A DNA stretch of 62,003 nt from a virus: IMG/VR virus record IMGVR_UViG_3300007735_000920, positions 1-62,003 of that record; one strand, 5' to 3'. Position 1 is the first letter of the stretch, and the number at the start of each line of letters is the position of its first letter. The notes beneath the pieces were generated by a model. That model was not told the origin of the DNA, ran no database searches, and was given only the letters and a program-made list of their open reading frames with translations. This document shows positions 18,196 through 61,779 of this stretch, in pieces. The translations under genes were made by a program, and so were the position numbers.

Positions 18196-18786
18196 ATGTC
18201 AGAGAAATTTGTACTAACAGAGTTTCTAGAACTATCAAATGATTCTTCACTATTGACTGAAGCTGAAAAGCAAAAAGTTAATGAAGGCGAAGAATTTATT
18301 CTTGCTGGTGTAATGCAAAGAGCTGACGCCGAAAATGGCAATGGTCGTATCTATCCTCTTGATATATTAGAAAGAGAAGTTGAAAATTACAAGAAACTTG
18401 TAAGAGACAGCCGTGCTCTTGGCGAATTAGACCACCCAGACTCGCCCGTAATTGAGCTAAAAAATGCCTCCCATATGGTTACATACATTGAGATGCGTGG
18501 TAGAGATGTTGTAGGTAAAATTAGAGTTCTTGATACTCCAGCAGGGAAAGTTGCAAAAGAACTTCTAAAAGGTGGCGTAAAGCTAGGAATTTCTTCTAGA
18601 GGTCTTGGTTCAACAAAACAACAAAATGGTAAGACAATGGTTCAAGAAGACTTTCAATTGGTCTGCTTTGATCTTGTATCTGAACCATCAACAACTGGTG
18701 CCTTCATGTTGAAAGAAGGTATGCAACCCAATCTTTTCACAAAAGCAGATAGAATCAATAGAATACTAAACAGTATAATAAAGTAA
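18196..18786 (+). CDS. Prohead core protease (gp21-like)
   Basis: 196 residues, close to T4 gp21. Hallmarks of the phage prohead serine protease: NGRIYPLDILEREVENYKKL, catalytic His80 in GELDHPDSP, catalytic Ser in GISSRGLG (133-134) and the following QLVCFDLVSEPST strand. It should cut scaffold, capsid and internal proteins after (L/I)-x-E once the prohead is complete, and probably itself. The N-terminus (LTEFLELS, LLTEAEK) has possible self-cleavage sites. One base after the preceding gene, four before the next. Confidence 0.93.
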   Translation: MSEKFVLTEFLELSNDSSLLTEAEKQKVNEGEEFILAGVMQRADAENGNGRIYPLDILEREVENYKKLVRDSRALGELDHPDSPVIELKNASHMVTYIEMRGRDVVGKIRVLDTPAGKVAKELLKGGVKLGISSRGLGSTKQQNGKTMVQEDFQLVCFDLVSEPSTTGAFMLKEGMQPNLFTKADRINRILNSIIK

Positions 18787-21222: not shown

Positions 21223-22512
21223 ATGAGTTCATTGATCGAACAAGCTATTCTAGATGCCAAAGAATTAAAAGAGGCTGCCATTAAAAATGCGGAGCAACTT
21301 ATCATTGAGAAATATGCCAATGAAATAAAAAGCAATTTAGAGCAGCTTCTTGAGCAAGATTTAGGCGCAATGCCAGCGATGCCCGCTGCACCAGCAATGC
21401 CGGGAACTGTTGCGCCATCTCCACCACCAGTTGATCCAGCCAAAGCAAAAGCAGACAAAGACAAAGTTCCAAATCAGTTGGAATATGCTGCTTTTGATGG
21501 TATGACAATTGGTAAAACAAAATATGCAGATCTAAATGAAGAAGTTGAAATTGATCTAACTTCTCTAACAGAATATGAATTGAATCCAGAAAAAGGTCCA
21601 ACCAAAAGAAATCTTCAAGAATCTTTTGACATATCAGAAGAAGCACTACAAGAAATGCTTTCTGATTTAGACGCAGGTGGTGCAGATTATATGCACGAAG
21701 AAGAAGAACTAGAAGAAGAAATGACTGGTATGGAAGATACAACCATGCCTCTTTACGAAGAAGAGGAAGAAGTCTCAACAGATGATGACATGGATTTAAT
21801 GTCGGCTGACGATTCTATGGATGATTTAGGCACCGATGAAGGTGCAGAGAGTGATAGTTTATTGGCTTCTTTGTCCTCTGAAGAACCAGAAGAAGAAGAA
21901 ATGGAAGACATTTCTGCTGAATTATCTGAAGCCTTAAAGATTGATTATAACGAAAATTATAAAGCTGGTCGTGATTATCCATTTGGAGCAAATACAACCG
22001 AAGATACACACACTCTTATGCTTTCTAATCTCTATGATGAAGTTCAAGAGAAAGAAAAAGAAAATAAAGAACTAAAAGAACAAAATGAATTATTGAAGAA
22101 GAAACTTGCAGAAGCCGGTAAACTTATTGCTGAAGCTCACAAACAGCACTCTTCAATCAAAGAATCCTTTCACTCGATGAAAGGTAAATTGGCAGAAGTT
22201 CAGCTTATGAACGCTAAACTTCTATATTCTAATAAGGTATTGACAGATGCCTCCTTGAATGAGCGACAGAAAAATAAGATTGTCGAGTCATTGTCAACTG
22301 CCGATTCATTAGAAAAAGTAAAAATCGTTTATGAAACCCTTCAGAGCGCAGTGGAGGACAACACCTCTTGGGCACCTAAATCACTGAGCGAAGCTGTATC
22401 AAAACGTTCTTCTTCTTTATTGATCAAAGCCAATAGAAAAGAAGATAGGGATGCAAATCCTGTAAGTGAAACACTTTCTAGAATGAAAATTCTAGCAGGT
22501 ATTAATAAATAA
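21223..22512 (+). CDS. Prohead scaffold protein (gp22-like)
   Basis: 429 residues. The C-terminal half has the T4 gp22 signature: coiled coil KEKENKELKEQNELLKKKLA, then KLLYSNKVLTDASLNERQKN and a conserved end. The middle (about 140-245) is an extremely acidic region, and an Ala/Pro linker lies near 45-75. gp22 forms the internal core on which the capsid assembles and is then degraded by the prohead protease. Longer than T4 gp22 (269 residues) because of the acidic and N-terminal parts. The major capsid gene follows directly. Confidence 0.88.
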   Translation: MSSLIEQAILDAKELKEAAIKNAEQLIIEKYANEIKSNLEQLLEQDLGAMPAMPAAPAMPGTVAPSPPPVDPAKAKADKDKVPNQLEYAAFDGMTIGKTKYADLNEEVEIDLTSLTEYELNPEKGPTKRNLQESFDISEEALQEMLSDLDAGGADYMHEEEELEEEMTGMEDTTMPLYEEEEEVSTDDDMDLMSADDSMDDLGTDEGAESDSLLASLSSEEPEEEEMEDISAELSEALKIDYNENYKAGRDYPFGANTTEDTHTLMLSNLYDEVQEKEKENKELKEQNELLKKKLAEAGKLIAEAHKQHSSIKESFHSMKGKLAEVQLMNAKLLYSNKVLTDASLNERQKNKIVESLSTADSLEKVKIVYETLQSAVEDNTSWAPKSLSEAVSKRSSSLLIKANRKEDRDANPVSETLSRMKILAGINK

Positions 22513-22537: not shown

Positions 22538-24361
22538 ATGGCTACTATTGTTGAAAGTTTAACAAGAGATATAGTCGATCGCGATCTCCGTAAAGAAGGT
22601 GCCAATCTCATCAAGAAATGGGAAAAGACTGGTCTTCTTGAAGGTTTGAGCGACGACAGAGTAAAAAATACAATGTCGGTTCTATTAGAGAACCAAGCAA
22701 AAGAACTACTACGTGAAGCTTCTTCAATGTCCGCTGGTGACGTTGAAGGTTTCGCCGCTGTAGCATTTCCAATTGTACGTCGTGTATTCGGCGGTCTAAT
22801 TGCAAATGAATTAGTTTCCGTACAACCAATGTCATTACCATCAGGTCTAATCTTCTTCCTAGATTTTACCTTCTCGGCTGACACTGGCGCTAGAACTCAA
22901 TCAGGGTTTACTGCTGTAACTGCTTCTTCAGTATACGGTGGTGGCGTTGTTGGTCAACAAATCACTGGTGGTGTAAGTCTAACTGGTGCCAATGCCGAAA
23001 CGAGCTTCTATGCTCTAAATAACGGCTACTCAAGCGCCACTGGCTCTGCGGCAACAACTGTTGCTGCTGCAACCCCAGATGACCTTTTTGGTAGTGGTGA
23101 TACAACATCACTACAAAATAGAACACTTGCTGTTATTACAGCAAGCGATGTTTTATATTCTGCCATTCTAGGTTATGATGCCGATGAAGCTGCTCTAAAT
23201 TCCGGAACAATCTATTCTGTTGTAAGCATTCCATTATCAAACCTAACTGGTTCTGGTGGTAATCCTTTTGACACCAACAACTTGATCGCACTCAATGTTG
23301 CCTCTTCTTCTAATGGTTTGATTACAAACCAAGCTGCTGGCACAACTCACAGCGTTGTAAGAAGATTGACAAGACTCAGTGCAGACAAGACCAAGGTTAT
23401 TCTAACTGTAAAAAGCGCTGGTACCACACCAGCCAATCCAGTAAATACTTCTGGTACTCCTGCATGTACTTTTGCAGTCAAAGATAAGTTCACCGCTGAT
23501 ACAACTAGATTCTCAATTTCTGAGCTTCTAGCTGCTGAAGGCGCTGGTTCTGGCTCTGTTGGTCCCGGCTTAGGTCAATCCTCTGGTGCAAATGCAACAA
23601 TCCCCGAGATCGACATTAAGGTGGATTCAATTGCTGTAACTGCTCAAACCAAGAAACTAAAAGCAAAATGGACTCCTGAGCTAGCTCAAGATCTAAATGC
23701 TTATCACAACTTGGATGCAGAAGTAGAATTGACTGGTATTCTCTCAGAGCAAATTGCTCTAGAAATCGACCAAGAGATTCTAAACGATCTAGTTAAGGGT
23801 GCCACCGCTGGTACACTTTACTGGTCACGTCGCCCCGGTAAGTTCGTAAACCGTGAAACTGGCGCATCAATTGCTTCAGCAGTTGCTCCTCCAGACTTCA
23901 CTGGTAACGTGTCCGAATGGTACGAAACACTTGTAGAAACTCTAAACGACGTTTCTGCTCGTATTCACCGTAAGACACTACGCGGTGGTGCAAACTTCAT
24001 GGTTTGCTCACCAGAAGTTGCTAACATCCTAGAGTTCACCTCTGGTTTCCGCGCTTCTGTATCTGCTGAAGAACTCAAAGGTAATTCAGTGGGTGCCGTA
24101 AAGGTTGGCTCAATGAGCAAGAAGTGGGACGTATATGTTGATCCATATTTCCCACGTAACGTAGTACTAATCGGTCGTAGAGGCAAGGCGTTCTTAGAGA
24201 GCGGCTATGTCTACGCTCCTTATGTACCACTACAAGTTACCCCCACCATCTTTGGTGTCGAGGACTTCGTACCACGTAAAGGCGTAATGACTCGTTATGC
24301 CAAGAAGATGGTGCGCCCCGATATGTACGGTTTAGTAATCTGCGAAGATCTATTAGGCTAG
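22538..24361 (+). CDS. Major capsid protein (gp23-like)
   Basis: 607 residues. FPIVRRVFGGLIANELVSVQ then PMSLPSGLIFFLDFTF and the C-terminal VEDFVPRKGVMTRYAKKMV identify T4-type gp23. A predicted prohead-protease site L-L-R-E60|A61 matches the position of T4 cleavage after E65, so the mature protein should start near base 22718. Immediately after it lies SSMSAGDVEGFA, a motif repeated in the 58665-60227 product. About 85 residues longer than T4 gp23, mainly as a Ser/Gly/Ala-rich insertion at about 110-330. Strong ribosome site AAGGAG; codon use appears more optimised than in neighbours (many CGT, GGT, CTA). Followed by a terminator. Confidence 0.95.
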   Translation: MATIVESLTRDIVDRDLRKEGANLIKKWEKTGLLEGLSDDRVKNTMSVLLENQAKELLREASSMSAGDVEGFAAVAFPIVRRVFGGLIANELVSVQPMSLPSGLIFFLDFTFSADTGARTQSGFTAVTASSVYGGGVVGQQITGGVSLTGANAETSFYALNNGYSSATGSAATTVAAATPDDLFGSGDTTSLQNRTLAVITASDVLYSAILGYDADEAALNSGTIYSVVSIPLSNLTGSGGNPFDTNNLIALNVASSSNGLITNQAAGTTHSVVRRLTRLSADKTKVILTVKSAGTTPANPVNTSGTPACTFAVKDKFTADTTRFSISELLAAEGAGSGSVGPGLGQSSGANATIPEIDIKVDSIAVTAQTKKLKAKWTPELAQDLNAYHNLDAEVELTGILSEQIALEIDQEILNDLVKGATAGTLYWSRRPGKFVNRETGASIASAVAPPDFTGNVSEWYETLVETLNDVSARIHRKTLRGGANFMVCSPEVANILEFTSGFRASVSAEELKGNSVGAVKVGSMSKKWDVYVDPYFPRNVVLIGRRGKAFLESGYVYAPYVPLQVTPTIFGVEDFVPRKGVMTRYAKKMVRPDMYGLVICEDLLG

Positions 24362-27084: not shown

Positions 27085-30033
27085 ATGGCAGTGTCAGCAA
27101 AAAATTATCGTTTCGTATCCCCCGGCATCGTGACTCAAGAAATTGATCGTTCGCGTATTCCAAACGCCCCCGCTCCAATCGGACCAGTTGTGATTGGTCG
27201 TGCAGAGAGAGGTCCAGCTTTTACACCAGTAACAGTTACTTCTTTTGATGAATTTACAAGCACATTTGGTAATCCAGTTCCCGGTGGTGTTGGTGGCGAT
27301 GTTTGGAGAGATGGAAATAAAACCTCTCCAATGTATGGTACATATGCTGCACAAGCTTGGTTGAAAAATGGTCAAGCATTGACTTATGTTAGAGTACTCG
27401 GTGATCAGTCTGATTCGGCTACAACGAACGGTAAAGCAGGTTGGAGCTTTGATGCGCCAACAACTACTAATTTCAAGGGTGCTTATGGTTTATTCGTTGC
27501 CCCTTCTGGTGCTGCCCCCGTAACTGGTGCTTTGGCAGCGGTTTGGTATTGTGGTACTGGCAATGGCTCTACCGACAGAGTTCCTGTTTTAGTGGGGACA
27601 ACCCCCGGTTTGGCAGCCAATGTAGCTGGCACTTGTGGTTTTGTATCTACAACCGATGGAACATTTACTGCTTACTTGTCTGGTTCTAGTGGCGCTGCTT
27701 TAGGACCATATAAATTCAGTTTAGATAAAACAAAGCCAAATTATATTAGAAAAGTATTCAACACCGATCCAACTCTTGTTGGTAAGTCTACTGCGTTTGG
27801 TGGAACTTCATACTTCTTAGGTGAAACCTTTGAGGACGTATATACTAACAATACAAATACAGCTGGTTGGTCTTCAACTACAAATTACTATGCTGTAATT
27901 TTACCATTGACTGATGGTACTACAAATTTTGCAAATCGTAAGTTTGCATATCAGCCAGCAAAATCTGGTTGGATTATTAGCCAAGATACCAGCGCCGATA
28001 CCAGCTCATTTACAATAACTGGTGCAAATGGCACAGTAACAGGCTCTTTCTTCAATAGCGGAAGAGTAAAGAAGCTATTTAGATTTGCTGCTCTAAACTC
28101 TGGCGAGTGGATACAAAACAATCTAAAAATTGCCATTACAAACATTACTGCTCCAACCAACATCAATGTAAATCCTTATGCTACATTTGATGTAGAATTG
28201 AGACTATTATTCGATCAAGATACAAATAAGAAAGTAGTTGAATCATTTAGTGGTTGTACTCTAAACGCTAATTCTGATTCATTTATTGCCAAAGTAATAG
28301 GTGATAAGTATGTAGACTATGATGAAACAAACGGCAGATTAGTTGAATATGGAAGCAATGAAAACAAATCAAGATATGTTCGCGTTGAAATGAATGACGA
28401 ATTTATCAATGGTACATCCGATTATGTTCCATTTGGTACAACTTTCCCCGTTGTTTACAAAAGCGCAACTATATCTGCGGCGAATGTCGGTGGCGCAGGC
28501 ACACTAGCTGGAAATAAATACTTTGGTGACAAAACATATGCAGCAGCTTCTGCTTCCGCAACTGTTGCAATAACTGGTGCCATTTCTTCACAATGGGACT
28601 ATCCAATTCCTTTATATAGAACTACAACCTCTGGTTTGAGTTCTCTAAAGTTTGCCTATTTCGGCGCTCAACCAGTTTCTGATTCTGGCGTTGTTGCAGG
28701 TTCTGTGATTGATGTTCTAAGAATGAATGCGGCGTTAGCGGGTGCGGCTTCTTATGACCCCGATGATACTAATACTGCTTATTCTGCAATTATCACTTTA
28801 GATAATGTCAAATATAGCACAACCTTGGGGTCTAATAGCAACCCATATTCTGATTTATCTTACGCTAACAATGCAAGATCGAGTGGCGTTTCTTTGACCG
28901 CAACTGGCTCTTTACCAAGCACGTTCCCACAAGCAGCAACTGTTTCTGGAACATACAAAGCCCCGTTGGCTCTTGGTATAAATAAATTCTGTTCATATTT
29001 CTATAATGGTTCTGATGGTTTTGACATAATAGAGTCAAATCCTCTAAGAAATGGTTTGATTGCAACAAATGCAACTGCTCAAAATGATTACAGATTTTTC
29101 TCATATCAAAGAGCAATTGACACTGTAAAGAACCCTGAAATTGCACAATACAACGCAATTACTGTTCCCGGCTTAACAATTCAATCATTGCACAACCGTC
29201 TAATCAATAATACAGAAACAAGAGCAGATGCCTTGGCAATCGTTGATGTTCCTAAAGGTTACAATCCAGAAGCCGAATGGCAATGGTTTACCCAAACAAA
29301 CACAACCGATGTACCAACCAAGGGCACTGCGTATATGGGCAATGTAAACGATGCTGTATCCTTATGGACAACTCGCGCTTATAATAGCAATTATGCCTGC
29401 GCCTACTATCCATGGGTACAAATTAGAGATGCTGTAAATGGCACAAATGTATGGGTTCCACCTTCAGTTGTTGCTTTCGGCGCAATGGCTTACACAGACG
29501 CAGTTCAAGCTCCTTGGTTTGCTCCTGCTGGTTTCAACCGTGGTGGCTTGTCAAGTGGCGTTGCTGGTTTGCCAGTAATCAATACTGCTCTCAAGCTATT
29601 CCAAACTGATAGAGATACTCTTTATAACATCAACATCAATCCAATTGCTTCGTTCCCCAATGAAGGCGTTGTGATCTTTGGTCAAAAGACTCTACAGGTT
29701 GAGAGAAGTGCTCTCGATAGAATCAATGTCCGCAGACTATTGATTTACGTCAAGAGCGGTATTTCTCAAATTGCTTCAAGAATTCTATTTGAGCAAAACA
29801 TCCAAGACACTTGGAATAGATTTATTGGTCAAGCAGAACCCTTCTTGGCTGATGTGAAATCAAGATTCGGCTTGGTTGATTACAAGTTCCTATTGGATCA
29901 AACAACAACCACACCAGATTTGATTGACCAAAATACTCTATATGCTAAAGTATACTTGAAGCCAGCCAGAGCAATTGAATTTATTGCACTTGACTTCATC
30001 ATCACAAATACTGGCGCTTCTTTTGAGGACTAA
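27085..30033 (+). CDS. Tail sheath protein (gp18-like)
   Basis: 982 residues. The N-terminus SPGIVTQEIDRSRIPNAPAP then IGPVVIGRAERGPAFTPV is classic contractile sheath, and the C-terminus (INVRRLLIYVKSGISQIASR, then FEQNIQDTWNRFIGQAEPFL) is the conserved sheath core. The middle (about 130-620) is a large insertion of Ser/Thr/Gly-rich domains that would project from the tail surface; T4 gp18 has 659 residues. Confirms a contractile tail. Confidence 0.95.
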   Translation: MAVSAKNYRFVSPGIVTQEIDRSRIPNAPAPIGPVVIGRAERGPAFTPVTVTSFDEFTSTFGNPVPGGVGGDVWRDGNKTSPMYGTYAAQAWLKNGQALTYVRVLGDQSDSATTNGKAGWSFDAPTTTNFKGAYGLFVAPSGAAPVTGALAAVWYCGTGNGSTDRVPVLVGTTPGLAANVAGTCGFVSTTDGTFTAYLSGSSGAALGPYKFSLDKTKPNYIRKVFNTDPTLVGKSTAFGGTSYFLGETFEDVYTNNTNTAGWSSTTNYYAVILPLTDGTTNFANRKFAYQPAKSGWIISQDTSADTSSFTITGANGTVTGSFFNSGRVKKLFRFAALNSGEWIQNNLKIAITNITAPTNINVNPYATFDVELRLLFDQDTNKKVVESFSGCTLNANSDSFIAKVIGDKYVDYDETNGRLVEYGSNENKSRYVRVEMNDEFINGTSDYVPFGTTFPVVYKSATISAANVGGAGTLAGNKYFGDKTYAAASASATVAITGAISSQWDYPIPLYRTTTSGLSSLKFAYFGAQPVSDSGVVAGSVIDVLRMNAALAGAASYDPDDTNTAYSAIITLDNVKYSTTLGSNSNPYSDLSYANNARSSGVSLTATGSLPSTFPQAATVSGTYKAPLALGINKFCSYFYNGSDGFDIIESNPLRNGLIATNATAQNDYRFFSYQRAIDTVKNPEIAQYNAITVPGLTIQSLHNRLINNTETRADALAIVDVPKGYNPEAEWQWFTQTNTTDVPTKGTAYMGNVNDAVSLWTTRAYNSNYACAYYPWVQIRDAVNGTNVWVPPSVVAFGAMAYTDAVQAPWFAPAGFNRGGLSSGVAGLPVINTALKLFQTDRDTLYNININPIASFPNEGVVIFGQKTLQVERSALDRINVRRLLIYVKSGISQIASRILFEQNIQDTWNRFIGQAEPFLADVKSRFGLVDYKFLLDQTTTTPDLIDQNTLYAKVYLKPARAIEFIALDFIITNTGASFED

Positions 30034-50657: not shown

Positions 50658-52157
50658 ATGCCTCTTCCGTTTAGAATACCAAAAACAGACAATACAATAA
50701 CTAGCCCTCTAACTTCCTTCAACGAGGTAAGTGTTTCCGAATTATATCCGGCTGCACAAGGCGATTTTATATACGGCATAAATAATGTTGTATTTATATC
50801 CAGCTCGTATTCTGGCGGTTCAATTTCAGGCAGCAACGGTTTCGGAATTGTAAAAAGCGGTACCAGCGTCACTGGCTCTGCGCTTATTAGTCTTCGACGT
50901 AATCTAAAATATAGACCCGGTTTTGGTTCTCTTATCAGAGCAACGTGTCTTTTTGATACACCTGTTTCTGGTAATGCTCAATTGATCGGCATAGGAAATG
51001 CAGAATGTGGTTATTATTTTGGGTATTACGGAACCCAATTTGGTATTTTACACCAAGAAACTTCGCAAGTTGAGATAAGAAAGCTTACAGTAACAACACC
51101 AGCAGGTACAGAAACAATAACGATTACGCTAAATGGTGTTTCAGTCGGCGTTCCAGTTGTTGGTGGTGGTGATGCAAATCAGACCTCTTATCAAATAGCA
51201 AAATACGATTTTAGAAATGTTGGTGTTGGTTGGCAGGCTGATGCAATAGATGGAACAGTATATTTTACCGCTGGAGTATCTGGTCCTTTTACTGGATCTT
51301 ATTCTGCCGTTGGTAGTAGTACTTTTGTTGGAACATTTGCTGGAGTTCTAACTGGAAGCACTGGTACTTCTTCTTTTATTCCGCAATCTTCTTGGAACAT
51401 TGACCAACTTTGTTCTAACTGTGGAAGCGAATTTGTCTTGAATCCGCAAAAAGGTAATGTCTATCAAATAGGTTTTCAGTATCTAGGTTTTGGTAATGCT
51501 TTCTTTGGTATAGAAAATCCTGAAACTGGAAGAATTACGCCAGTTCATATGATAAAAAATACCAACGCAAGAACAACTGCTGTATTGAAAAACCCGCAGA
51601 TGACAACTACACTAATAAGTAAAAACTTTGGTTCTTCAACCAGTGTTCAGCCAAAATCTTTAAGTATGGCTGCCTTCACAGAGGGCTTTGCTAGAAAGCT
51701 AGACCCAAGATTTGCTGCGTCTCATACCTTTTCTGGTTATAACTCCACAACAAAAGCGCCTCTTTTGGCTCTAAAAATCAATGCAGTTTATAACAATCAA
51801 ACTTGTTTTGCTGAATTTGACATTTTAAGAATAGCAGCATCAAACGAATCGACAAATAAAACTCTCACTATTTCAGTTTATAAAAATTTAGACATCAATG
51901 GTGCTGTAAACTTTCAATATGTTGATCAAGCCAATAGTGCAGTGTCTTACGCGAATCTGACTCCCGGAACAAATACTGTGACTACCACTGGAAAAGTTCC
52001 ATTTTTAACTTTCTCTGTTGGCGCAAATAATGCCGCAACAATAGATATAGCACCCGAAGAATTAGTTTTCGGTGCTGGAGAAATTGTTATTATTTGTATT
52101 TCTACTTCTGGAGCGGTAACTGGAGAAGTTGGCATCAACTGGTTTGAGCAACAATAA
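50658..52157 (+). CDS. Large beta-rich virion protein, function unknown
   Basis: 499 residues, low charge, Ser/Thr/Gly-rich. Landmarks: MPLPFRIPKTDNTITSPLTS start, FDTPVSGNAQLIGIGNAECG, YYFGYYGTQFGILHQETSQV, VGWQADAIDGTVYFTAGVSG, LVLNPQKGNVYQIGFQYLGF-type strands. This looks like a multi-domain jelly-roll type structural protein, perhaps a fibre or capsid surface component. No ribosome site precedes the ATG and the late promoter is almost adjacent, so initiation may be leaderless. Confidence 0.6.
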   Translation: MPLPFRIPKTDNTITSPLTSFNEVSVSELYPAAQGDFIYGINNVVFISSSYSGGSISGSNGFGIVKSGTSVTGSALISLRRNLKYRPGFGSLIRATCLFDTPVSGNAQLIGIGNAECGYYFGYYGTQFGILHQETSQVEIRKLTVTTPAGTETITITLNGVSVGVPVVGGGDANQTSYQIAKYDFRNVGVGWQADAIDGTVYFTAGVSGPFTGSYSAVGSSTFVGTFAGVLTGSTGTSSFIPQSSWNIDQLCSNCGSEFVLNPQKGNVYQIGFQYLGFGNAFFGIENPETGRITPVHMIKNTNARTTAVLKNPQMTTTLISKNFGSSTSVQPKSLSMAAFTEGFARKLDPRFAASHTFSGYNSTTKAPLLALKINAVYNNQTCFAEFDILRIAASNESTNKTLTISVYKNLDINGAVNFQYVDQANSAVSYANLTPGTNTVTTTGKVPFLTFSVGANNAATIDIAPEELVFGAGEIVIICISTSGAVTGEVGINWFEQQ

Positions 52158-54301: not shown

Positions 54302-56626
54302 ATGAAAATTCAGATTCGCAAAACACTTTCAGAAGATATGAAAGCTCCTTATTATAAGAGAGTAAAAGGTATCCACGAAAAGAATAAAAAAATTCTGATT
54401 GGTTTTGGTGTCGGAGCCGATGAAAACAGAGGACCGTTCAAGACCGACCGTTCGATGGGCAAGAAGGGTAAATCTGCACCTCCCGGCGCTGCTGGTGGTG
54501 GTTCTTTAGAAGAAGTGCTGGTAGAAGGCGGTGTTGCTGGGCATATGAATCACTTATATGATAATCCAGACATTACATTTAGCCAAATAAAAGATATATT
54601 CAATAAAGCTTCTGCTGGCGAACTGGAAGGTACAGAAAAAACCGATGGGCAAAATTTGCAAATCTCTTTTTCAGTACCAGAACAAAGAGCTAAAGCCGCT
54701 AGAAATAAAGGCAACATCAAGGCTGGTGGTCTAACTTCCGACGAACTAAAAACCAAATTTGCTGGTCGTGGTCCACTGGAAGAAACATTTGCTGATGCTC
54801 TTCAATCTTTTGAGGAACTTGTAAAAACTTTACCCCAAGAACAACAAGTAAGTATTTTTGGTCCTAATACTGAAATATATTATAATGCCGAAGTTCAAGA
54901 TCCTAGAACAGCTAATGTAATTTATTATGATTCGCCAAACTTGGTTATTCACCAAGCTGGACATGCTAAATACAATAGAGAAACGGGAGACAAAGAAGAA
55001 GTTGACGTTTCACAAAATGCAGCAATGCTCAACGATCTGTTGCAAAAACAACAGAGTTCACAACAAAGTAAATTCAAGGTTCAATCTAACGCTATAAGAA
55101 AATTACAAGCTATATCAGATAAAAGTATCGTAAAGAACTACATCACAAGACTAGACCAAGAAATAAGCAAGTATGGCATCTCGGATAATCAAAAACTAAA
55201 AGATTATGAAAAAGCCAGACTTCGACAAATCATAAAGCAAGAATTCAACATTGAGCTAAATGATGAACAATTTGAGATGATTTCAACCAAGATGTTTGGC
55301 GAAACATCAGAAAACATAAATCAAGTTGTAAAGAGATTTCCACCTGAAATTGCTGCAACAGTAAAAACTATTATTGCCTCCAAAGATTTATTAGGTAAAG
55401 CCGTAAGACCAATTGAGGTAATTATTCATGATTTTGCTGTGGAAATTCTAAAGGGTCTTGAGAGCGCATTTGTTCTAGATAATAAGAAAGAAGTAAAGAG
55501 ACTAAAAGACGAAGTTGCAGATGCTATAAATCAAATACAACAATCTGGGCAAGAAGAAGCTATAACTATTCTAAACAAACAATTGGAAAAACTCAAGACG
55601 GCTGACAATGTTTATACAGCAGCTGAAGGATTTGTCTTCCAGTATGATGATGTTGTGTATAAATTTACTGGTAATTTTGCTCCAATAAATCAAATCTTGG
55701 GATTGTTCAAGTATGGCAGAGGCTCTGTGCCAGCTATCAAAAAACAAATCAGTGAATCAACTGAAGCACAAAATGTAATTGTTGTATTCCCCGGTTCCTT
55801 CAAGCCTCCGCACAAAGGACATATAGGACTTGTTGACGAAGTATCACACATGTCTGGTATCAGTAAAGTTGTTGTCCTTATATCTGATCCTGTGCAAGAA
55901 ACCAGTATAAGAACAAAAGACTTTGGCGCTAAAGAAGTCAAACTAATTTTCGATCTTTACAGCGAAGTGTATGACTTTGGCTGTAGTGTTGATTTTGATG
56001 TTGCTAATGCGCCTTCCCCATTGACTGCGGCTTATAAGTATTTGGAAACAGAAAACTTTCAGCCGGGAACCAAAGTTTTATTTGCAACATCAAAAGCAGA
56101 TGCTGGAAGGTATCCGCAAATCAAATTAGATAAATCTGCTTCCAAAAATCCTTCTGGACCAACCGCTGGCTCTATAGAATTACCAGAGATGATCGATCCA
56201 GATACAGGAAAGAAATTTAGTGCAACAAACATGCGTGAAATTCTTGCAGATCCAAATGCAGATAAACAACTGCTGAAGAGATATATGCCAAATGAACTTC
56301 CCGATGAAGATAAGGAAATGGTGATTGATATGCTTACAAAAGGCTCTAAAAAACAAGAGATGGAAACTATGATAACAGAAATCTTAGCAGAAATGTTAGG
56401 ACTTTCTGAGAAGAAAGATATGATTTGTGATGGTACCATGTGTAATGAAGTTCATGATGGTATGAGTCACAAAGAATATGAATCATATTTGATGCAAGAA
56501 AAAGAGGGCGAAGATGATCGTTGCACTCGTATTGCAAAAAGAAAGTACGATGCTTGGCCAAGCGCTTATGCTTCTGGTGCAGTTGTAAGATGCCGCAGAG
56601 GCGAAATTTGGAAAGGCGAAAAGTAA
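54302..56626 (+). CDS. Ligase-like nucleotidyltransferase + HxGH nucleotidylyltransferase fusion
   Basis: 774 residues. Leader MKIQIRKTLSEDMKAPYYKR. Residues about 80-470 look like a covalent nucleotidyltransferase (RNA/DNA ligase fold): motif I E112-K-T-D-G116, acidic strand YYNAEVQDP, motif IV-like EGFVFQYDD near 442 and K in VYKFTGNFAPINQILG. Residues about 490-690 are a nucleotidylyltransferase: FPGSFKPPHKGH (H504-H507) and SATNMRE (640-646), as in NMN/cytidylyl transferases. The C-terminus (about 745-774) is a KYDAWPSAYASGAVVRCRRG module seen in other phage proteins. Joint action on NAD or RNA ends is possible; the substrate cannot be read from sequence. Confidence 0.75.
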   Translation: MKIQIRKTLSEDMKAPYYKRVKGIHEKNKKILIGFGVGADENRGPFKTDRSMGKKGKSAPPGAAGGGSLEEVLVEGGVAGHMNHLYDNPDITFSQIKDIFNKASAGELEGTEKTDGQNLQISFSVPEQRAKAARNKGNIKAGGLTSDELKTKFAGRGPLEETFADALQSFEELVKTLPQEQQVSIFGPNTEIYYNAEVQDPRTANVIYYDSPNLVIHQAGHAKYNRETGDKEEVDVSQNAAMLNDLLQKQQSSQQSKFKVQSNAIRKLQAISDKSIVKNYITRLDQEISKYGISDNQKLKDYEKARLRQIIKQEFNIELNDEQFEMISTKMFGETSENINQVVKRFPPEIAATVKTIIASKDLLGKAVRPIEVIIHDFAVEILKGLESAFVLDNKKEVKRLKDEVADAINQIQQSGQEEAITILNKQLEKLKTADNVYTAAEGFVFQYDDVVYKFTGNFAPINQILGLFKYGRGSVPAIKKQISESTEAQNVIVVFPGSFKPPHKGHIGLVDEVSHMSGISKVVVLISDPVQETSIRTKDFGAKEVKLIFDLYSEVYDFGCSVDFDVANAPSPLTAAYKYLETENFQPGTKVLFATSKADAGRYPQIKLDKSASKNPSGPTAGSIELPEMIDPDTGKKFSATNMREILADPNADKQLLKRYMPNELPDEDKEMVIDMLTKGSKKQEMETMITEILAEMLGLSEKKDMICDGTMCNEVHDGMSHKEYESYLMQEKEGEDDRCTRIAKRKYDAWPSAYASGAVVRCRRGEIWKGEK

Positions 56627-56627
56627 A

Positions 56628-57476
56628 ATGAAAATTCCTCTGAACCAACTTCAGCAGATTATCAAAGAAGAGCTTACAAAAGCCATTGAAGAAGAGTGGT
56701 CTGAAAAATATAAAAGATCAATTGACTGCAAAAATCCAAAAGGCTTTTCTCAAAGAGCACATTGCCAAGGCAGAAAGAAAAATGAAGCTAGTGATCCAAA
56801 AGTAGGAACAGGTAAAAAACCAGAGGGTTCTGGTCGCCGCTTATACACAGATGAAAATCCAAAAGATACTGTGAGTGTTAAATTTTCAACTGTTCAAGAT
56901 ATAAAAGACACTCTCTCAAAAGAATCTTTCAAGTCAAAACCACATGCTCGTCAATCACAGATAATCAATCTAATTCACCAGAGAGTTCGCGCTGCCTATG
57001 AAAACGCAAAAGATCCAGAAGTGAAAGCTAGACTAAAGAAAGCATATGAATATGCAGAGCAAAGAAAAGAAGCCTCAAAAGAAAAAACTGCCAGTTTGCA
57101 AAAGGAAGAACAAGACGTTCAACTAAATGAAAAATGCTGGGAAGGTTATACACAGAAAGGCATGAAAACAATGTTTGGCAAGAAATACCCAAACTGCGTA
57201 AAAAAGACAAATGAAGAAGTTGAATTAGATGAGCGCAAACTTGGCAAGCCTTCTAGTGAAACTTCTTTGAGAGATTGGTTCAAGCGCAAAGGTGCCCCCG
57301 GTAAAGGCGGCGGTTGGGTTGATTGTAATACTTGTCGTGATGGTAAATGCAAGCCATGTGGCAGACAAGAAGGCGAAAAGAGAAGCAAGTATCCAAGATG
57401 CCGTCCAACTCCTGCCCAATGTAAGGGCTACAAGAGAAGAGGCGATAATCTACAAAAGGAAGCGGAAGAACAATGA
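56628..57476 (+). CDS. Modular Cys-rich protein with EE-helix leader
   Basis: 282 residues. Leader MKIPLNQLQQIIKEELTKAI. Then modules known from other marine phage proteins: KYKRSIDCKNPKGFSQRAHC; a helical segment SQIINLIHQRVRAAYENAKD; CWEGYTQKGMKTMFGKKYPN with CVKK; and SLRDWFKRKGAPGKGGGWVD followed by CNTCRDGKCKPCGRQEGEKR and YPRCRPTPAQCKGYKRRG. At least nine Cys could bind zinc. Strongly basic. Overlaps the SOD gene by four bases (ATGA). A packaged, nucleic-acid-binding protein is plausible from charge and leader. Confidence 0.72.
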   Translation: MKIPLNQLQQIIKEELTKAIEEEWSEKYKRSIDCKNPKGFSQRAHCQGRKKNEASDPKVGTGKKPEGSGRRLYTDENPKDTVSVKFSTVQDIKDTLSKESFKSKPHARQSQIINLIHQRVRAAYENAKDPEVKARLKKAYEYAEQRKEASKEKTASLQKEEQDVQLNEKCWEGYTQKGMKTMFGKKYPNCVKKTNEEVELDERKLGKPSSETSLRDWFKRKGAPGKGGGWVDCNTCRDGKCKPCGRQEGEKRSKYPRCRPTPAQCKGYKRRGDNLQKEAEEQ

Positions 57477-58009
57477 AAATAAGACTGCTTCTGGAGTCAA
57501 AGAAGAAATACGTTCAAGTTCCTCTGCCTGTAAAAAAGACGGAACTTGAACCTGTTATGTCTGCTGACACAATTGATTATCATTATGGCTCTCTTTATAA
57601 AGGCTACGTTGATAAAGCCAATAAAGGTATTGGTGGTGAATTCCAAAAAGCAGGAGCTTTTCTTCATAACATTTGGTTCTCACAATTTACAAAGCCTTCC
57701 TCAAAAAAACCAGACGGTTTATTCCTTGAGCTTGTAAATCGCAAATACGGTTCTTATGCCTCTTTCCAAAAAGAAATGAAAGAAGTTGCCATGAAGATTC
57801 AAGGCTCTGGTTGGGTCTATATGGATAAAAACGGCAACATAAAAACTATTGTAAATCACGAAATCAAACCAGACATTATCCTATTGATTGATTGGTGGGA
57901 ACACGCTTGGGCTTTGGATTATCAAGCAGATAAAGAAGAATACCTAGACAACATTTACAAAGTTATTGACTGGAATGTTATAAACGCTCGTTTATCGACG
58001 GAGCAATAA
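57473..58009 (+). CDS. Fe/Mn superoxide dismutase with leader peptide
   Basis: 178 residues. Leader MKIRLLLESKKK, with an L-L-E|S protease-like site, precedes a SOD fold: SADTIDYHYGSLYKGYVDKA, FLHNIWFSQF, GSGWVYMDKNG and LLIDWWEHAWALDYQADKEE. All four metal ligands are present: H37, H65, D140, H144, plus the gateway Tyr45. The second-sphere KHH motif is changed to SLY. It should convert superoxide to peroxide and oxygen. Overlaps the preceding Cys-rich gene by four bases and the next gene by one. Late class by operon. Confidence 0.85.
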   Translation: MKIRLLLESKKKYVQVPLPVKKTELEPVMSADTIDYHYGSLYKGYVDKANKGIGGEFQKAGAFLHNIWFSQFTKPSSKKPDGLFLELVNRKYGSYASFQKEMKEVAMKIQGSGWVYMDKNGNIKTIVNHEIKPDIILLIDWWEHAWALDYQADKEEYLDNIYKVIDWNVINARLSTEQ

Positions 58010-61059: not shown

Positions 61060-61779
61060 ATGAAAGAGATTTTTAGAAGCTGGAATAAATACTTGTTAAC
61101 TGAGTCATCTTTATCAAGAGTGCTTGAGCATATTGAGGCTCATGATTGCGCTGTAATAACTGCTTTTAGAAGCGATCCGGATGATACTTCTAAGTGTGCC
61201 GATGGCACTGATTCAGATTCTGAAAACGTTTCTGATGTTGGCTCCGAAGAAGAAGTAGAAGCCGTAGAGATGGAAAAGCCAAAAGTTGGTAAGAAAGAAA
61301 CTTTAAGCAAAAACAAAGTTAGAAACCGCGACCTCAAAGCCACTCTTTTAGATAGAGGATATGGTGTCACCGCAGTTGTCGGATCTTATGTAGAGAATTT
61401 CATGGAAGAAAACTCTGTGGAAGTGAAAGAGGACAGTCTATTTGTTGTAAATCTAAAGGAAGATGGAGACTTCATTAATACCATCGAGTCTTTAGGTCGC
61501 AAGTACTGCCAAGATTCAGTGCTTATAATTCCTCAAGGCGGTAAAGACGCTTATCTGCTTGGTACAAACAACGCAGATTTCCCCGGCTTAGGCAACAAAG
61601 AAGTTGTTGGTAGTTTTCAGGCTGGGCGCGAAGATCAATTCATGACTCGCGTTGGTGATCGCCCATTCACCATGAAAGAAAGAAAAGAATTCAAGCTTGA
61701 GACTCTAGCTAATCACACAAGAAACTCTCGCTGGGCAATCAAGACAATTGCAAAAAGAGTAAATAAAACTTTACGATAA
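61060..61779 (+). CDS. Leader-bearing conserved marine-phage protein
   Basis: 239 residues. N-terminus MKEIFRSWNKYLLTESSLSR resembles the W-x-x-[FY]-L-x-E starts of many cyanophage proteins and the T4 capsid-targeting peptide (MKTYQEFIAEA), with an L-T-E|S site. The body (GYGVTAVVGSYVENFMEENS, SLFVVNLKEDGDFINTIESL, GRKYCQDSVLIIPQGGKDAY) is a conserved alpha/beta domain of unknown function. An acidic linker lies at about 45-75. Confidence 0.72.
   Translation: MKEIFRSWNKYLLTESSLSRVLEHIEAHDCAVITAFRSDPDDTSKCADGTDSDSENVSDVGSEEEVEAVEMEKPKVGKKETLSKNKVRNRDLKATLLDRGYGVTAVVGSYVENFMEENSVEVKEDSLFVVNLKEDGDFINTIESLGRKYCQDSVLIIPQGGKDAYLLGTNNADFPGLGNKEVVGSFQAGREDQFMTRVGDRPFTMKERKEFKLETLANHTRNSRWAIKTIAKRVNKTLR

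Follow-up and report, generated by a model that had tools for sequence, protein, structure and literature searches.

The question raised by this locus is whether two domains for nucleotidyl transfer, encoded by one gene of a T4-like phage, make up a single enzyme or a precursor from which separate enzymes are released. The window, i.e., the whole stretch of 62,003 nucleotides that was analysed (IMG/VR virus record IMGVR_UViG_3300007735_000920), is a virus record with a T4-type large terminase, portal, head maturation protease, major head protein, and tail sheath. The first-pass annotation described a ligase-like domain and an HxGH nucleotidylyltransferase fused in one protein and proposed NAD-linked modification of RNA or protein. 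The fusion is real and conserved, but it was partly misread, and the product is most likely a precursor separated by the head protease into cargo enzymes. We estimate the probability at about 0.6 that the gene product is cargo of a T4-like phage, made late as a polyprotein that is cut in the prohead and whose enzymes are ejected with the DNA.

The gene and its phage context

All the motifs named in the first-pass annotation were found in the product of the gene (Table 1). In the ligase part, these and adjoining motifs are located at residues 112-116 (E-K113-T-D-G), 134 (RNKG), 195 (NAEV), 442-446 (EGFVF), and 453-457 (YKFTG), and in the rest of the chain at residues 504-507 (HKGH), 640-645 (SATNMR), and 748 (KYDAWPSAYASGA). 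The C-terminal KYxxWPSAYASGA module is a real feature of this protein but not of the family, as the SAYASG motif was confined, among the fetched open reading frames, to the window and its copy with 99% identity. Stretches similar to the module occur in an unrelated Flavobacterium phage protein and in phrog_727, and residues 17-65 are similar to the C-terminus of a different phage protein (L039, 2882-3880).

Table 1. Features of the putative cargo gene and of two head genes in the window (vertical bars mark junctions).
Feature	Position	Strand	Details
Whole gene	54302..56626	+	Predicted precursor, cargo polyprotein, 774 aa
Leader/propeptide	54302..54526	+	Residues 1-75; candidate sites LSE11|D and LVE75|G
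Ligase-fold domain	54527..55756	+	Residues 76-485, ~46 kDa; predicted mature N-terminus Gly-Gly
ISE485|S486	55748..55756	+	Predicted head-protease site separating both enzymes
HxGH nucleotidylyltransferase	55757..56392	+	Residues 486-697, ~23 kDa
Tail	56393..56623	+	Residues 698-774; candidate sites ILAE697|M and LSE703|K; KYDAWPSAYASGA module
T4 gp21-type head maturation protease	18196..18786	+	phrog_207, 1.5e-52
Candidate scaffold protein	21223..22512	+	Eight (L/I)xE(A/G/S) sites; eight reached in 0.1% of shuffles

The protease of the window is 33.5% identical to T4 gp21 over residues 34-185, and direct T4 matches of the capsid and sheath proteins, over the matched parts, reach 31 and 38% identity, respectively. 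The eight (L/I)xE(A/G/S) sites in the candidate scaffold protein fit a T4-like specificity of this protease. Of the 15 long related records, 14 contain the gp21-type family, and in 83 fetched loci the retrieved sequence includes a homologue of the large terminase. Both the major head protein (22538-24361, 607 aa) and the tail sheath (27085-30033, 982 aa) are unusually long for a T4-type phage.

Upstream of the putative cargo gene, positions 50658-52157 encode a virion structural protein, and several neighbours of the cargo gene have similar leaders. The Fe/Mn superoxide dismutase encoded at 57473-58009 (PF02777, 4.5e-21) starts with MKIRLLLE|SKKK, a leader like those of packaged T4 proteins, and is possibly virion-borne. 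An S-adenosylmethionine-lyase-like protein (PF23780), an anti-restriction enzyme, is encoded at 61060-61779; it starts with MKEIFRSWNKYLLTE|SS and may also be head cargo. Short MKI, MNI, or MNF leaders, mostly followed by an (L/I)xE triplet, were found at gene starts 10785, 41886, 42541, 56628, and 58665, and such leaders suggest a wider set of head cargo.

Two predicted nucleotidyl-transfer domains

The IMG/VR scan with the window protein gave 43 relatives, and the scan with the form from Microcystis phage Mel-JY01 gave 304, of which 80 were fetched. Among deposited phage genomes, the ligase domain was found only in Mel-JY01 and two uncultured huge phages, and among metagenome-assembled genomes in seven contigs; the literature search returned no description of the ligase/HxGH fusion or of the ligase-domain family. 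In branch 1, to which the window protein belongs, the ligase domain precedes the transferase. In branch 2 and Mel-JY01 the order is reversed, with the transferase upstream and the ligase last, in proteins of up to 1643 aa that keep the same junction. The three branch-2 polyproteins tested also contain a P-loop kinase domain of the AAA_33/zeta-toxin group, whose P-loop is visible in 19 of the 29 long branch-2 polyproteins. This group includes polynucleotide kinases and also kinases that do not act on RNA. One relative of 1572 aa (L022, 113-4828) combines a zincin-like HELVHH segment, an ART-like segment, the ligase domain, DUF4116 repeats, and the HxGH domain, and its ART-like, ligase, and HxGH parts are preceded by QLNE or QLTE linkers.

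An alignment of the ligase domain covered 29 diverse sequences of both branches; the identity of branch 2 to the window protein is no more than 26-31%. Residues K113, D115, G116, R134, N135, E442, G443, V445, and F446, as well as Y453, K454, T456, and G457 in the motif V region, are invariant, the motif III glutamate E197 is kept in 28 of the 29, and motif I has the extended consensus E-K113-x-D-G-x-N across both branches. Because this invariance spans two branches so distant from each other, the motifs are not a product of chance. The combination by which the superfamily is recognized (K-x-D-G in motif I, the motif III glutamate, and EG in motif IV) is present. In the profile-profile comparison with T4 Rnl2, motif I and the next R-containing motif are in register, and the match to the deeper Rnl2 set has P 4.8e-4, whereas the best-scoring of nine unrelated phage families reached 0.023. 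The AlphaFold2 model built from 35 sequences is confident over the ligase domain; prediction from the single sequence gave pLDDT 36. Among the viral models listed as structural matches are several RNA ligases, along with many "cytidyltransferase-like" phage proteins, and since the table of matches holds no aligned ranges, we infer that the RNA-ligase matches belong to the ligase domain. The PDB fold matches listed are filled by the HxGH domain and contain no ligase, which does not count as evidence of its absence. The first-pass proposal of a ligase-like domain is supported by the invariance of its motifs in two branches and their register with T4 Rnl2; we regard a ligase-type domain as highly probable, the ligase fold as very likely, and its catalysis as likely.

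The domain stands apart from the known families. The curated cut-off of PF09414 (Rnl2-type) was missed (best of 35 members, E 0.026), Pfam and PHROG scans gave chance-level results, profile searches against PDB sequences returned only chance-level matches, none of them a ligase, and no curated family in Pfam, PHROG, or NCBIfam covers it. Its motif V region carries a single lysine (K454-F-T456, i.e., KxT) within the family-specific block YKxTGxFxPxNQ; the two-lysine K-x-K motif of Rnl2, in which K225 and K227 are invariant, is absent. A long helical insertion is placed between motifs III and IV. The one-lysine motif V, the insertion, and the missing family match would suit virion-delivered cargo whose ligase-fold domain modifies a host protein or small molecule, or merely binds a nucleotide. 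We consider this unlikely, as motifs I, III, and IV are retained, the sole detectable relatives are RNA ligases, and branch 2 adds the AAA_33/zeta-toxin P-loop kinase, although that group also holds non-RNA kinases.

The second domain was correctly recognized as an HxGH nucleotidylyltransferase. It has the HKGH motif and passes the PF01467 cut-off (21.9 bits vs. 21), and its residues 490-686 match NMNAT/NaMNAT and PPAT both by sequence and by fold (Z 12-13). NMNAT-type and PPAT-type chains are tied as best folds, so the substrate family is not assignable. Scores for the family models are far below their cut-offs (19.0 vs. 240 bits for NadD, 16.5 vs. 397 for NadM, and 21.5 vs. 103.3 for CoaD). 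In most branch-2 copies, GxHH is found instead of HxGH, the first histidine being replaced.

These results bear on the proposal of a single NAD-linked enzyme with two functions: the HxGH domain would make NAD or an NMP conjugate, and the ligase domain would apply it to RNA or protein. Such an enzyme would account for the two domains sharing a chain and for the resemblance of the HxGH domain to NMNAT/NaMNAT in sequence and fold. We nevertheless find it very improbable, because PPAT folds match equally well, the NadD, NadM, and CoaD cut-offs lie so far above the scores, and the HxGH histidine is lost across most of branch 2. The genome context speaks against it as well: no NadV-type phosphoribosyltransferase (PF04095) was found in the search, which covered 15 long related records, some of them possibly incomplete. 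The assignment to NMN or NAD, and with it the suggested NAD-linked modification, therefore finds no support in the family cut-offs or the search for partner genes. The view of the fusion as one enzyme is further opposed by the predicted head-protease sites between the domains and by the opposite domain order in relatives.

(L/I)xE sites and predicted processing

The ligase domain begins with Gly-Gly (or Gly-Ala) in all 96 distinct relatives compared, a count outside which stands L045, the most distant relative, whose ligase domain has no GG. The preceding residue is the glutamate of (L/I)xE in 72 of the 96 and Met in 24. T4 prohead protease gp21 cleaves after L/I-X-E (PMC9026906), and in the window the leader ends with this motif directly before the ligase domain (LVE75|GG76). 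Upstream of the junction the residues are variable and dispensable, save for L/I at -3 and E at -1; short-form leaders mostly count 7-12 aa. In five relatives (L083, L091, L095, L124, and L126), AAGGAG-N9-ATG occurs at M|GG within a longer frame, and the E|GG examples set beside them have no ATG at the ligase start. Because this in-frame AAGGAG and ATG are located exactly at the Gly-Gly, the identical N-terminus appears to be reached either via a start codon or via a predicted cleavage.

We considered whether the M|GG genes, the upstream genes of which end with LLEEGK, originated when a fused gene was split at the cleavage site. This origin was rejected, since the product of the upstream gene is a small coiled-coil protein whose gene is found ahead of an LxE form (L037) as well. 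This protein (~83-116 aa, mostly with an end like LLEEGK) is conserved upstream of many leaderless M|GG forms, and its gene is directly upstream in L004, L006, L010, L013, L018, L020, L034, L037, and L040.

The linker and the cores of the domains show the same motif distributed unevenly. Before the transferase, (L/I)xE was found in 49 of 56 relatives, compared with 16.8 in shuffles. The ligase cores are depleted of the triplet (108 vs. 296 expected), and control families from the same loci (TerL, portal, and others) remain at 0.93-2.0 of expectation. The ratio in the core equals 0.10 for branch 2, 0.56 and 0.52 for branch-1 members with and without a leader, respectively, and 0.19 for the window. 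Pooled counts overstate significance because the sequences are related; the depletion persists beyond relatedness, as the controls and a set of eight diverse representatives (ratio 0.63, 0.65% of shuffles) indicate. Eight of the ten triplets in the window protein are located in the leader, inter-domain linker, or tail, and the other two (LEE159 and LPE627) lie inside folded regions. For (L/I)xE(A/G/S), the entire window protein has 2 sites vs. 1.9 by chance, and with no excess only the positions of the sites are informative.

It could be argued that the protein works as an ordinary late enzyme in the cytoplasm without being cut or packaged, and that (L/I)xE|GG is an inherited N-terminal sequence of the fold. 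About one-quarter of relatives do start directly at M|GG, and (L/I)xE is a short motif, which is a caveat for any reading of cleavage sites. However, only L/I at -3 and E at -1 are kept upstream of the junction, the same motif marks the other linker too, the cores are depleted of it, in contrast to other families from these loci, and an internal ribosome-binding site with ATG recreates the same start in five relatives. We consider a cytoplasmic enzyme improbable. The leaderless forms (24 of 96) count against packaging, yet their cores are depleted too. The guess of the first-pass annotation that the protein might be packaged gains support from the (L/I)xE|GG junction, the linker sites, and the gp21-type protease. 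Processing and packaging of the polyprotein can be regarded as probable with good confidence.

Proposed course of events and comparison with known systems

In the proposed mechanism, the polyprotein would be produced late, alongside the head proteins, and would enter the prohead. There, the gp21-type protease would cleave behind the glutamate of (L/I)xE. Its cuts would include LVE75|GG76, ISE485|S486, and probably a position near residues 697-703, and would release the ~46 kDa ligase-fold enzyme with its N-terminal Gly-Gly and the ~23 kDa HxGH nucleotidylyltransferase. Both freed enzymes would ride in the head and leave with DNA into the next host cell, where K113 would take AMP (or another NMP) for transfer, most likely to an RNA end, resulting in RNA repair or modification at the start of infection. 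We infer the actual cleavage, packaging, and ejection, as well as the nucleotide, substrate, and purpose. We favour RNA repair or modification for two reasons: no relatives of the ligase domain other than RNA ligases could be detected, and the additional kinase of branch 2 comes from a group to which polynucleotide kinases belong; for an RNA task of the ligase enzyme, the odds may come close to even. Somewhat more tentatively, the head-carried polyprotein, built around a new ligase-fold family, might be cut into enzymes (ligase and HxGH transferase, joined in branch 2 by the P-loop kinase) that act together in RNA repair or against host defences, are delivered ahead of all phage gene expression, and are widespread in T4-like, largely uncultured phages.

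If the proposed mechanism is correct, then the capsid-targeting logic of T4 would extend from single internal proteins to a multi-enzyme precursor, and a ligase-fold family lacking a profile in Pfam, PHROGs, and NCBIfam would be added. This would suggest that hundreds of uncultured phages deliver nucleotidyl-transfer chemistry as their DNA enters, which is when the RNA-targeting defences of the host act. It would also call for caution, as domain fusions in phage late genes should not be taken for multifunctional enzymes until head-protease sites have been checked.

The packaged T4 proteins Alt and IPI are the precedents (PMC9958956, PMC9026906). As for T4 IPI-III and Alt, a short N-terminal leader ending with (L/I)xE, a genome-encoded gp21-type protease, and a position among late genes were found, and the short-form leaders of 7-12 aa are comparable to those of Alt (7) and IPIII (10); delivery with DNA is predicted as well. 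In contrast to the T4 proteins, one precursor here contains several enzymes with sites between them, and the cargo is of the ligase-fold and HxGH type. With T4 Rnl2 and the covalent nucleotidyltransferases, the ligase domain shares motif I (E-K-x-D/H-G-x-N), the next R-containing motif, the motif III Glu, and EGxV of motif IV; it differs from Rnl2 in having a long helical insertion that separates motif III from motif IV, a single lysine in the motif V region, and the TGxFxPxNQ block, and in lacking a PF09414 match. The HxGH domain resembles NMNAT/NaMNAT and PPAT in its fold (Z 12-13) and in carrying HxGH and SATxxR motifs, but falls far under the curated cut-offs of NadD, NadM, and CoaD. The nearest described multi-enzyme cargo is that of polyvalent proteins, for which release by embedded peptidases was proposed (PMC5512222). 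They likewise combine several enzyme domains per protein with predicted delivery to the host, and some of the relatives described here add kinase, zincin-like, or ART-like segments. Unlike in polyvalent proteins, the sites match the separate head protease of the phage, and it is the ligase-fold domain that stays constant.
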